Shown in pieces: positions 18,200 to 26,036 of a stretch of DNA of 64,000 bases. The DNA lies in contig NZ_VCEK01000003.1 in assembly GCF_005862235.1 (NCBI RefSeq), positions 788,079 to 852,078 of the forward strand, read 5' to 3'. Every line of letters starts with the position of its first letter. The first letter of the stretch is position 1. The translations under genes and the position numbers were made by a program. The DNA is from Saccharomonospora piscinae. Lineage in GTDB: Bacteria > Actinomycetota > Actinomycetes > Mycobacteriales > Pseudonocardiaceae. The notes beneath the pieces are model-generated. The model made no database searches and was not told the origin of the DNA. It saw only the letters and a list, made by a program, of their open reading frames with translations.

Positions 18200-18374
18200 G
18201 GAGACTGAATTCGATGAAAGTCCGGCGCGCGGATCGTGACGCTTCCGTGCGGTGAATGGGCGCTTCGGCCCATGTCCAGGATGTTTCCCAGGTGTTAAAG
18301 TCGCGCTCGTTGACGGGCCATTGTCGTCCCGTGCCCAGCACGAACACAGCACGACGACGACGCAGGAGGTCCCT
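18200..18374 (+). promoter_or_regulatory. gltB leader region
   Basis: About 175 bases between the divergent btu promoter and gltB. TAAAGT at 18296-18301 is a fair -10 box, but the -35 at the right distance (TGTCCA) is weak. The AGGAGG at 18364-18369 sets the TTG start of gltB. I see no further riboswitch or leader peptide. Confidence 0.35.
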
Positions 18375-21300
18375 TTGATCTTCTCCGCGATCCCCGAGCG
18401 GCAGGGCTGCTACGACCCTGCCGCCGAGACGGACTCCTGCGGAGTGGCCATGGTCGCTCACGTCCGGGGACTGCGGTCGCACAGCATCGTCACCGACGGT
18501 CTCACCGCGCTGACGAATCTCGACCACCGTGGAGCGGCCGGCGCCGAGCCGACGAGCGGCGACGGTGCGGGCCTCCTGCTGCAACTGCCGGACGAGCTGC
18601 TGCGAGCGGAGGCGGGAGTACCGCTGCCGGAGCCGGACGAGCGGGGCCGGCACCGCTACGCGGCCGGAATCGCGTTCCTGCCCAGCGAGAACGCCTCGCG
18701 GCGGCGCGCGGTCGAGTTGGTGGAACGCATCGCGGTCGAGGAGGGGCTCGCCGTGCTGGGCTGGCGTGAGGTGCCCACCGACGCCGACGCGGCGGACGTC
18801 GGCCCCACGGCCCGGTCGGTGATGCCGCACTGCGCGATGCTGTTCGTGGCCGACCCCCCGGACGCCGAGGGACGGCGCCGTGCGGGCATCGACCTCGACC
18901 GGCTCGCGTACTGCCTGCGCAAGCGGGCCGAGCACGAGAGCGAGGCCGCCGGGTGCGGCGTGTACTTCCCGTCGCTGTCGTCGCGCACGCTGGTGTACAA
19001 GGGAATGCTGACGCCGGTGCAGCTGCCCCTGTTCTTCCCTGACCTGGCCGACGAGCGGCTGGTGAGTGCCATCGCGCTCGTACACAGCCGGTTCTCGACC
19101 AACACCTTTCCGTCGTGGCCGCTGGCGCACCCGTTCCGGTTCGTCGCCCACAACGGGGAGATCAACACCGTGCGGGGCAACCGGAACCGGATGCGGGCCA
19201 GGGAGGCGCTGCTGGAGTCGGACCTCCTGCCCGGTGATCTGAGCCGGTTGTTCCCCGTGTGCTCGCCGGAGAGCTCCGACTCGGCGTCCTTCGACGAGGT
19301 GCTGGAGCTGTTGCACCTCGGTGGCCGGAGCCTGCCCCACGCGGTGCTCATGATGATCCCGGAGGCGTGGGAGAACCACGGCACGATGGACGAGCGCCGC
19401 CGGGCGTTCTACCGGTTCCACGCCAGCCTGATGGAACCGTGGGACGGCCCCGCCTGCGTCACGTTCACCGACGGCTCGCTGGTCGGCGCGGTGCTCGACC
19501 GCAACGGCCTGCGGCCCGCGCGCTGGTGGCACACGGACGACGACCGCGTGGTGTTCGCCAGCGAGAGCGGTGTGCTGGACGTGCCGCCGGAGCAGGTGGT
19601 CGCCAAGGGCAGGCTGAATCCGGGGCGCATGTTCTGCGTGGACACCGAGGCGGGCAGGGTCGTCGACGACGACGAGATCAAGTCGGACCTGGCGGCCCAG
19701 GCCCCGTACGGCGACTGGGTCCACGCGGGACTGCTCTCGCTCGGCGACCTGCCCGACCGCGACCACATCACCCAGTCCCATGCCGCCGTGACGCGCAGGC
19801 AGATCGCCTTCGGCTACACCGAGGAGGAGTTGAAGATCCTGCTCGGCCCCATGGCGACAAGCGGTGCCGAACCGGTGAGCTCGATGGGCTCGGACACGCC
19901 CGTGGCCGTGCTCTCCCAGCGTTCCCGGCTGCTGTACGAGTACTTCAAGCAGGGGTTCGCTCAGGTGACCAATCCACCGCTCGACGCCATCCGCGAGGAG
20001 CTGGTGACGTCGATGAGCCGCGTGATGGGGCCCGAACAGAACCTGCTGGCACCCGGGCCGGCCTCGTGCAGGCACATCCAGCTGTCCTCGCCGGTCATCG
20101 ACAACGACGAGCTGGCCAAGCTCATCCACGTCAACGACGACGGCGACCTCCCCGGATTCGCCTGTACTATCCTTTCCGGACTGTACGATGTCGAGGGTGG
20201 CGGAGCGGCGCTGGCCGATGCCGTCGCCCGTGTGCGGCGCGAGGCGTCGGAGGCGATCGCCGCCGGAGCGCGCATTCTCGTGCTGTCGGACCGCGACTCC
20301 GATCATCGGATGGCGCCGATTCCCTCGCTGCTGCTGGTCGCGGCCGTCCACCACCATCTAGTGCGCACCAAGGAACGGTTGCGGGTCGCGCTCGTCGTGG
20401 AGTCGGGGGACGCCCGCGAGGTCCACCACGTCGCGCTGCTGCTCGGGTACGGCGCGGCGGCGGTGAACCCGTACCTGGCCTTCGAGTCGCTGGAGGACCT
20501 CGTGGCTCAGGGCGCGATCACGGACATCGAGCCGAGAGCCGCCGTGCGCAACTACGTCGCCGCGCTCAACAAGGGCGTCCTCAAGATCATGTCCAAGATG
20601 GGCATCTCCACGGTGGGCGCGTACACCGGCGCCCAGGTCTTCGAGGCACTCGGCCTGTCGCAGCAGGTACTGGACGAGTACTTCACCGGCACGGTGTCGA
20701 AGCTGGGCGGTGTCGGACTCGACGTCCTCGCGGAGGAGGTGGCGCTGCGCCACCGGCACGCCTACCCCGACAACCCGACGGAGTTCGCCCACCGCGGCCT
20801 CGACAGCGGCGGCGAGTACGCCTACCGGCGAGAGGGTGAGCTGCACCTGTTCACCCCCGAGACCGTGTTCCTGCTCCAGCACGCGGGCCGGTCCCGGCGG
20901 GAGGAGGCGTACCGGAGCTACGTCGACGAGGTGAACCGGCTCAACCGCGAGGGCGGGGTGCTGCGCGGGATGTTCTCCTTCCGCGAGGGAGTTCGCGAGC
21001 CCGTGCCGATCGACGAGGTGGAGTCGGTCGAGTCGATCTGCCGCCGGTTCAACACCGGGGGCATGTCCTACGGTTCGCTGTCGATGGAGGCGCACCAGAC
21101 GCTGGCCATCGCGATGAACACCCTCGGCGGCCGGTCCAACTCCGGCGAGGGCGGTGAGGACCCGGAGCGGTTGCACGACCCGTTGCGGCGCAGTGCCGTG
21201 AAGCAGGTCGCGAGTGGCCGGTTCGGGGTGACCAGCGAGTACCTCGTCAGCGCCGACGACATCCAGATCAAGATGGCGCAGGGAGCCAAGCCCGGCGAGG

Positions 21301-22940
21301 GCGGGCAGTTGCCGCCCAACAAGGTGTATCCGTGGATTGCCACCACCCGGCACTCCACCCCGGGAGTGGGGCTGATCTCACCGCCGCCCCACCACGACAT
21401 CTACTCCATCGAGGATCTGGCGCAGCTGATCCACGACCTGAAGAACGCCAACGAACGGGCGCGTGTCCACGTCAAGCTGGTGAGTTCGCTCGGCGTCGGC
21501 ACGGTCGCGGCCGGAGTGTCGAAGGCCCACGCCGACGTGGTGCTGATCTCGGGCCACGACGGCGGTACGGGCGCCTCGCCGATGAACTCCCTCAAGCACG
21601 CGGGAACCCCGTGGGAGATCGGGCTGGCCGAAACGCAGCAGACACTGCTGCTCAACAACCTGCGGGACCGGATCACCGTGCAGGCCGACGGCGGCTTCAA
21701 GACGGGACGGGACGTGATCGTCGCGGCACTGCTCGGCGCCGAGGAGTACGGCTTCGCGACCGCGCCGCTGGTGGTGGCGGGCTGCGTGATGATGCGCGTC
21801 TGCCACCTGGACACCTGCCCGGTGGGAGTGGCGACGCAGAGCCCTGACCTGCGCGAGCGCTACACGGGCCAGGCCGAGCACGTCATCAACTTCTTCCGGT
21901 TCGTGGCGCAGGAGGTGCGGGAGTACCTCGCGGCGCTCGGGTTCCGTTCGCTGGACGAGGCCGTCGGCAGGGCCGAGGTGCTCGACGTCGACGAGGCGGT
22001 GACGCACTGGAAGGCCCAGGGCCTCGACCTCTCGCCGGTCTTCAGCGTGCCCTCGGAGTTCGCCGGCGAGCGCCGCAAGGTACGCGAGCAGGACCACGGG
22101 CTCGATCAGGCGCTGGACCGCACGCTGATCCAGCTCGCGGGTGCGGCGCTGGAGGACGCGCGGCCGGTTCGCGTGGAACTGCCGGTGCGCAACGTCAACC
22201 GGACGGTCGGCACCCTGCTGGGCGCGGAGGTCACCCGCCGCTTCGGCAGCGGCGGGCTCCCGGATGACACGGTCAGCGTGGCTCTGACCGGGTCGGCGGG
22301 GCAGTCACTGGGTGCCTTCCTCCCGGCGGGAGTGACGCTGGACCTCGTCGGCGACGCCAACGACTACGTCGCCAAGGGGCTCTCCGGCGGCCGGATCGTC
22401 GTACGGCCCGGCGCGGAGGCCGCGTTCGCGGCCGAGGACCAGGTGATCGCGGGCAACACCATCGCCTACGGCGCCACCTCGGGTGAGGTGTTCCTGCGGG
22501 GCCAGGTCGGTGAGCGGTTCGGCGTGCGGAACTCGGGTGCGCTGCTCGTCGCCGAAGGGGTCGGTGACCACGCCTTCGAGTACATGACCGGCGGGCGCGC
22601 GGTCGTGCTCGGCCGGACGGGTCGCAATCTGGCCGCGGGCATGTCGGGCGGTGTCGCCTACGTGCTCGACCTCGACGAGCGCCAGGTCAACACGGCGATG
22701 GTGGACCTGCTCGCGCCGGACGAGCAGGAGCTGGCCTGGCTCAGGGACGTCGTCGAGCGGCATCTCGAACACACCAAGTCGACGGTGGCCGCGTCCCTGC
22801 TCGGGGACTGGCGGCGCCGGTCGGCCGGTTTCACCGTGGTGATGCCGACGGACTACCGCCGCGTGCTGGAGGCGACGAAGGCGGCTCGGGCGCGGGGGAG
22901 GAATGTCGAGGAAGCGATCATGGAGGCGGCACGTGGCTGA
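18375..22940 (+). CDS. gltB: Glutamate synthase (ferredoxin/NADPH type), large subunit
   Basis: A 1521-residue protein, normal for GltB. A 21-residue propeptide precedes the N-terminal nucleophile Cys22 ([15 protein letters not shown]) of the class II glutaminase domain (to about residue 400). The central domain, the FMN barrel ([53 protein letters not shown]) with the 3Fe-4S cysteines in [15 protein letters not shown], and the C-terminal beta-helix ([16 protein letters not shown]) follow. It forms glutamate from glutamine and 2-oxoglutarate with GltD. TTG at 18375 is chosen because AGGAGG is six bases upstream; earlier ATGs lack one and would block propeptide processing. Confidence 0.96.
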
Positions 22941-23077
22941 GCATGGTGGAGCAGTCGCGTGTGCCGACCGGGTGCGGGTGTCCCGCGGGATTCGGAGGCA
23001 GCACGTGGCTGAGCATGGTGGGGCAGTTGCGTGTGCCGACCGGGTGCGGGTGTCCCGCGAATCTCTGGAGGCGGTAC

Positions 23078-23086
<9 letters not shown>
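22922..23086 (+). repeat. 72-bp tandem repeat spanning the gltB-gltD junction
   Basis: Two near-identical units, 22922-22993 and 22994-23066, plus the first 20 bases of a third from 23067. Each begins with GGAGGC, a five-base spacer and CGTGGCTGA, so each carries a Shine-Dalgarno site and a GTG-GCT start like that of gltD. Unit 1 overlaps the last codons of gltB, and the third partial unit is the real gltD start. Units 1 and 2 differ at only a handful of positions; unit 2 is one base longer, which changes the frame entering gltD. Confidence 0.9.
22933..23085 (+). CDS. Possible small repeat-encoded peptide between gltB and gltD
   Basis: Starting from the GTG of the first repeat unit (GGAGGC upstream), an open frame of 50 codons runs through both units as two copies of a 24-residue motif beginning [18 protein letters not shown], ending at a TGA just inside gltD. 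Whether it is made is unknown. It could be translated at the expense of gltD because all three start modules have equally good binding sites. Alternatively a frame from ATG 22943 would fuse the repeats to gltD as an N-terminal extension. Confidence 0.25.

Positions 23087-26036
<2,950 letters not shown>

Follow-up and report, generated by a model that had tools for sequence, protein, structure and literature searches.

The repeat that separates gltB from gltD in the window, a stretch of 64,000 nucleotides from Saccharomonospora piscinae, is probably one locus of a dispersed, MIRU-like family of elements at coupled gene junctions, where ribosomes would be relayed to the downstream gene through small open reading frames lying behind start-covering hairpins. 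The identities of gltB and gltD were confirmed via NCBIfam (PRK11750, TIGR01317). Read directly from the sequence, GGAGGC occurs at 22922, 22994, and 23067 and is followed each time by CGTGGCTGA, with GTG codons at 22933, 23005, and 23078 and TGA codons at 22938-22940 (the end of gltB) and 23083-23085. The preliminary description of this DNA had reported three such start modules, the first over the gltB stop and the third being the gltD start, within a 72-bp tandem repeat, and both points hold. Tandem Repeats Finder places the repeat at 22921-23085 with a period of 72, 2.3 copies, and 89% matches, and its score of 272 is the highest among the 11 rows returned for the window. The spacing between the two genes consists of two 72/73-bp units and a third start module, and each unit begins with X (Shine-Dalgarno sequence and start), continues through a loop to X', which is antisense to X, and to a GC-rich hairpin, and ends with a spacer that leads to the next X (Table 1). 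The two reading frames pointed out earlier are also present: one of 50 codons, which opens with GTG 22933 over the gltB stop at 22938 and closes with the TGA at 23083 over the gltD GTG, and an extended gltD frame of 547 amino acids from ATG 22943. However, the three starts do not appear to be equal, as had been supposed, because each of the two upstream unit starts sits in a predicted 14-bp stem.

Table 1. Features of the gltB-gltD junction, in coordinates of the window
Feature	Position	Strand	Remark
gltB, glutamate synthase large subunit	18252..22940	+	ORF from the first in-frame GTG; true start maybe further in
X1, RBS and GTG 22933 overlapping the gltB stop	22922..22940	+	native junction
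Unit 1 hairpin P1, 5' arm with GTG start	22925..22939	+	predicted; fold of 22920-22965
Unit 1 hairpin P1, 3' arm X'1	22952..22965	+	antisense to X1
Unit 1 conserved core	22966..22986	+	with P2 hairpin GCGGG-TGT-CCCGC
X2, second RBS/GTG(23005)/TGA module	22994..23012	+	
Unit 2 hairpin P1, 5' arm	22997..23011	+	predicted; fold of 22992-23037
Unit 2 hairpin P1, 3' arm X'2	23024..23037	+	alternative partner: gltD start
Unit 2 conserved core	23038..23058	+	exact copy of core 1
Possible relay ORF	22933..23085	+	GTG over gltB stop, 50 codons, TGA over gltD GTG
X3, RBS and native gltD GTG 23078	23067..23085	+	TGA 23083-23085
gltD, glutamate synthase small subunit	23078..24586	+	

The junctions of relatives support the earlier proposal of an ancestor in which gltB and gltD overlapped. 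The 8-nt overlap, GTGGCTGA, is unbroken in Saccharomonospora saliphila (genome G007, which matches S. saliphila YIM 90502 with 100% identity over 4449 bases, L181 against L084) and in the outgroups. The junction of S. saliphila (L185) reads ATGGAGGCAGCCCGTGGCTGATCCGAAGGG, without an insert, and although gltD in this draft genome is broken by a 100-base gap beyond roughly residue 175, the junction itself is continuous. In Amycolatopsis sp. MtRt-6, Saccharopolyspora subtropica, Saccharopolyspora elongata, and Lentzea aerocolonigenes, GGAGGC and CGTGGCTGA likewise lead straight into gltD. One to five units are found at this junction in six other Saccharomonospora, and it is also filled in Prauserella shujinwangii and P. 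cavernicola. The tandem expansion suspected earlier is supported by this variation in unit number among species (0 to 5), and no relative among the junctions read had a gltB-gltD sequence of equal length that was diverged and non-repeated. Compared with an element-free junction, a filled one contains, per unit, about 53 bp of element and a second copy of the RBS/start module of about 19 bp. We infer from these sequences that the element was inserted into junctions; it would have spread by insertion at coupled junctions, followed by tandem expansion and contraction. A second gltB-gltD pair (G000:C7:201043; paralogues in the genus, L172-L182), with a GltD about 60% identical, carries the element in several species, again at the overlap, and lacks it in others.

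The preliminary description had explained the array as a tandem duplication of the start module, which stands for the RBS/start part; the remaining ~53 bp per unit is instead a member of a family that recurs at numerous other junctions. A local duplication of the gltD start module alone, with no dispersed element, would account for the duplicated RBS/start part and for the variable tandem copy number, but it is highly improbable and is contradicted by the dispersed copies, since the ~53 bp recurs at unrelated junctions of the genome and of the genus and is absent from element-free junctions. The conserved core, GACCGGGTGCGGGTGTCCCGC, was searched together with its two preceding bases. In the genome of S. 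piscinae (4.9 Mb), 17 core matches with at most 3 mismatches were found at 9 places, 15 of them within one mismatch, and the reversed-pattern control gave no match. All 12 genomes of the genus, S. piscinae included, contained the core, with a single control match across the whole set. At the level of the family, 67 of 150 genomes matched within 2 mismatches, a figure that is an upper bound because half of the loci from other genera (15 of 30) do not look like the element by eye. Outside the family but within the same class, 245 genomes gave no match to the core within 1 mismatch.

A covariance model gave 25 matches at E ≤ 0.1, the last of which were chance-like. Among 18 named genomes, matches at E ≤ 0.001 were found in P. 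shujinwangii (7), P. cavernicola (6), P. rugosa (7), Saccharomonospora saliphila (10), Saccharopolyspora subtropica (13), Saccharopolyspora elongata (7), Nocardia transvalensis (2), and L. aerocolonigenes (1, weak and resembling coding sequence), and the other ten gave none. In a sample drawn from across the order, 9 of 61 genomes matched; four belong to the family and scored strongly, and the five outside it, matched only at E values of 1e-4 to 7e-4, look like chance by eye. Both copies in N. transvalensis (L319 and L327) combine a perfect core with a long-stemmed hairpin, at mnhC-like and thiolase-like junctions as judged by eye, suggesting that the element also occurs outside the family, either by transfer or because of a wider spread. 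A known Rfam RNA family was rejected as the identity of the element, as 10 loci gave no match at the gathering score. No published description of this repeat family was found in the titles and abstract beginnings of the best-ranked literature matches, which lay mostly outside subscription journals.

For the analysis of sites, places with at most 2 mismatches to the core were collected from the 12 genomes, which gave 70 clusters with 127 units; 13 single places with 3 mismatches lie outside the collection. The units sit mostly at stop/start junctions of co-directional genes and in gene orientation. A TGA stop was located 19 to 39 nt 5' of the core in 64 of the 70 clusters (GTGA in 33, ATGA in 16, and CTGA in 15). 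A downstream start was located in 59 clusters, 13 to 22 nt past the core in 49 of those, by a simple ORF finder, a few results of which are wrong or doubtful (e.g., L216 and L257) and which in some arrays picked a start inside the array. The junctions, named by eye from translations, include gltB-gltD (two paralogues), pheS-pheT, zwf-opcA, nuoE-nuoF, lysA-hom, pyrB-pyrC, pcaH-pcaG, rplE-rpsZ, ABC transporter pairs, and the positions preceding cobO and mog. Single units were found in 32 clusters, two units in 25, three in 9, four in 2, and five in 2, which are minimum counts, diverged units being missed. In two genomes (L196 in G001 and L242 in G006, around 1500), an element copy lies inside a gene that is NuoG-like by eye; the frame of this gene stays open through the copy, and the inverted repeat is kept.

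Lying 5' of the cores is an antisense arm, X', whose pairing partner is X, the RBS/start region of its own unit. In the window, the fold of unit 1 reached −23.1 kcal/mol (z −3.23) and that of unit 2 −19.7 kcal/mol (z −1.89), the latter being only moderately better than shuffles, of which 13 of 200 were as good; the core alone folds no better than shuffles (z 0.19). RNAalifold on 57 units recovered the X:X' stem together with the core hairpin GCGGG-TGT-CCCGC. These 57 were taken from 69 listed units, and the covariation test leans towards structure because weak hairpins (L230, L238, L234, L235, and L241) are among the 12 units dropped by hand; the swap test described below includes them. Within this alignment, 91.3% of cells at paired positions were paired, compared with 78.3% for shuffled alignments and 38 to 53% for slid structures. 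Double changes were seen in 12 of 17 pairs (9.2 after shuffling) and in 128 cells (against 42.9), and the covariation value of 0.399 (0.168 when shuffled) was reached by 0 of 500 shuffles.

The match of X' to its locus was examined by swapping X' among junction groups. After N-containing, short-flank, and duplicate units had been dropped, 102 distinct units of the 127 were used, in 16 junction groups defined by the upstream protein (L252, L215/L207, and L256 placed by hand); L196 and L242 (NuoG-like) and L229 and L257 (non-element-like or chance) were excluded here as well as from the relay and G.U/A.C tests. The mean minimum free energy was −21.2 kcal/mol with a unit's own X' and −14.4 kcal/mol when X' was borrowed from other groups. 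Of the 102 units, 69 ranked in the best 5% of swaps; an earlier assignment to 18 groups, with L216, L217, and L224 misplaced, gave 65 of 102 and changed the numbers little. At the four RBS-start pairs of the outer stem, own X' formed 2.49 Watson-Crick pairs and swapped X' 1.42, with 0 of 5000 swaps as good, even though some units of the swap tests had a wrongly placed RBS, which works against this result. The fit was poor for rplE-rpsZ (median rank 0.60), the L234/L241 group (0.41), and nuoE-nuoF (0.13). The start codon was fully paired in 63 of the 85 units with a locatable start. In three lysA-hom loci (L212, L251, and L252; G010 and G009), an extra A in X (GTGAAGC) is matched by an extra T in X', and the start of the gene itself, where visible (L212 and L252), lacks this A, so that the insertion is compensated in the stem. 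Another unit (L305, G009) has a 14-bp stem with an X unlike the start region of the following gene, its X' being matched to its own X only.

The kind of mismatch tolerated in the stems also bears on the level at which they are maintained. Mere decay of an inverted repeat gives both transitions alike, and similar numbers of G.U and A.C mismatches would therefore be expected from it; random inverted windows of the same loci did show 23,362 G.U and 23,501 A.C mismatches (32,524 windows out of 150,000 scanned). The X:X' stems contained 1190 matches, 56 transversions, and 124 G.U versus 14 A.C mismatches. Part of this excess reflects composition, because the base composition of X predicts that 62% of transitions are G.U-compatible, compared with the 90% observed. 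G.U exceeded A.C in 13 of 16 junction groups, with ties in the other 3, and with one unit per group the median was 20 G.U versus 2 A.C. No G.U excess was found at zwf-opcA (7 versus 7). In other genera, a set of 19 rows chosen by eye gave 18 G.U and 5 A.C; it comprises 15 of the 30 loci L134-L163, three from the order-wide sample, and L010, with L163 and L285 being one place. Taken together, the fit of X' to its locus, the covarying pairs, and the occurrence of G.U and not A.C mismatches point to selection on the mRNA fold.

How translation might pass such a structure can be considered for gltB-gltD. A ribosome that ends gltB at 22938 would re-initiate at the overlapping GTG 22933 and open the hairpin, and the same ribosome would then translate the small relay ORF and stop at 23083 atop the gltD GTG. 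Coupling would thereby survive 145 bp of extra DNA, and the hairpins would bar free ribosomes from the unit starts. An overlapping stop-start chain reaches the downstream gene in 50 of 53 arrays (L207, L215, L216, and L252, by hand, as well as arrays without a found stop or start, were left out). However, frame-shifted controls did so in 72 of 106 cases, and a conserved relay-ORF frame was for this reason rejected as strong evidence; the relay ORF is only weakly better than chance, which agrees with a relay and falls short of proof. In gene pairs of H. volcanii and E. coli, reinitiation is nearly gone at about 20 nt and coupling drops steeply with distance (PMC10666635), suggesting that a relay would be required across 145 bp. 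In a synthetic operon of E. coli, re-initiation was lowered by stable hairpins that follow stop codons (PMC7518266), and the element could by the same token damp coupling instead of keeping it. Both the native −8 overlap of gltB and gltD and the covering of starts by hairpins are in keeping with translational coupling, whether through RNA unfolding or through termination-reinitiation (PMC12548453, PMC10666635); in contrast to ordinary coupling as presented there, the coupling site here is interrupted and rebuilt by a repeat. The element also resembles ribosome termination structures, in which a stable mRNA hairpin at the stop codon affects re-initiation (PMC7518266). Those are ordinary local folds that are depleted inside operons, whereas the fold considered here is brought to the junction by a dispersed element and takes in the next start.

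A different role can be suggested tentatively, namely that the array is a regulatory tuner in which each X' pairs with its own or the next start, so that the array forms a chain of alternative hairpins, ribosome traffic sets the downstream:upstream ratio, and copy number tunes it. In the predicted fold of 22994-23100, X'2 pairs with the gltD start, and an effect of the last X' on the GltB:GltD ratio through such predicted alternative pairing is possible. Across 65 arrays, the last X' paired with the sequence after the last core, which is usually the gene's own start, at a mean of −21.5 kcal/mol compared with −16.2 kcal/mol for swaps (L251, at a contig end, was skipped). Several gene pairs at element junctions are, by name, subunits of one enzyme. 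Nevertheless, only 30 of the 65 arrays beat 95% of swaps, and wherever X nearly duplicates the gene start, complementarity of the last X' is automatic. The 107-nt fold of unit 2 with the gltD start (22994-23100) was no better than shuffles (z −0.43), and the copy number of units is not conserved.

The element could also be a selfish repeat without a regulatory role, the hairpin and the relay ORF being kept since copies that disturb downstream genes are lost, and we give this reading slightly less than an even chance. Presence and copy number vary at the same junction among related species, some relatives lack the element, a generic and less adapted form exists, and a copy lies in the open frame of the NuoG-like gene of two genomes. 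The locus-matched hairpin at most junctions, however, seems to go beyond the needs of simple tolerance.

Mycobacterial interspersed repetitive units (MIRUs) are said to have been described by Supply et al. in 1997, for example at senX3-regX3. The element resembles MIRUs in being short, dispersed, tandem, located at start codons, and apparently mobile; MIRUs also contain a small ORF that is coupled to the gene after it, as is proposed here for the relay ORF (PMC12548453, PMC4213456). They insert at start codons, and their ORF couples to the gene (PMC12548453). MIRU units measure 77 and 53 bp, and the ~72-bp units here consist of an insert of ~53 bp and a start-module copy. The accessible parts of the two MIRU accounts (PMC12548453, PMC4213456) differ from our element in making no mention of a locus-matched antisense arm or a start-covering hairpin. 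Homology with MIRUs, which were compared by description only, received no support from the covariance model in mycobacterial genomes: 78 genomes inferred as Mycobacterium gave 3 hits near E 0.001, none convincing, and M. genavense and M. scrofulaceum gave no match. The insertion target of MIRUs is DTGA; the tetranucleotides that end in the upstream TGA at the element clusters are GTGA in 33 and ATGA in 16 cases, but also CTGA in 15, of 64. By analogy of position, size, tandem behaviour, and likely coupling, the element would work like MIRUs, with no sequence kinship detected. This suggests that mycobacteria are not the only bacteria with MIRU-like elements and provides a concrete structural reason for the tolerance of such elements inside coupled operons of central metabolism. 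The family also offers dozens of natural replicates, with one element at varied junctions and copy numbers and element-free junctions in relatives, which allow us to ask how ribosomes cross actinobacterial gene boundaries and in what way a mobile element becomes fitted to the site that it enters.

Other small repeats share fewer of these properties. The BOX, RUP, and SPRITE repeats of pneumococcus are structured, small, and interspersed, often near genes, but in the available text of PMC3049150 they are not placed at coupled starts and no locus matching is described. REP-like palindromes, which a RAYT (Y1) transposase would mobilise, are like the element short, dispersed, and hairpin-forming; this origin is very unlikely, because Y1_Tnp (PF01797) was found in 4 of the 12 genus genomes and the element in all 12, which leaves RAYT mobilisation unsupported. 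No transposase for the element was identified among the 12 genus genomes with the one family searched, Y1_Tnp.

The origin of X' may be approached through the different forms of the element. A generic arm, CGCTCATGAAAGCC, was found with at most 2 mismatches in 16 of 182 distinct sequences, a set that includes chance core matches. These sequences lie at different junctions in Saccharopolyspora, Prauserella, Saccharomonospora, and further genera, and several of them also share the X GGAGGCGTCATGAGCGA. At lysA-hom, a junction assigned by eye for part of the loci, the generic arm is present in L232 and L320 (P. rugosa), and an arm matched to the local GGTGTCGTG is present in L004, L293, L296, L307, L212, and L251. 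This graded series suggests stepwise adaptation from a generic to an adapted arm, with the direction read from sequence comparison. Templated copying of X at insertion is doubtful as the sole origin of X', given the generic X' at different junctions and the lysA-hom series. A fuller scenario, which we regard as somewhat unlikely as a whole, is that a mobile element, generic at first (X GGAGGCGTCATGAGCGA, X' CGCTCATGAAAGCC), enters a coupled junction and that compensatory evolution or templated copying then makes X' complementary to the local RBS/start, which would give each operon its own start-gating hairpin, with tandem copies forming an alternative-hairpin chain that sets subunit ratios. 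There is also a second, long form of the element, in which a long GC-rich hairpin replaces the short core hairpin; 23 exact matches were found in 10 of the 12 genomes, two of them in the genome of S. piscinae. In this form (G000:C6:383339 and C6:448010; L292-L314), a stable hairpin of variable sequence lies between GACCGGG and, mostly, GGGTGTCCCGC, and the long form may be the full element.
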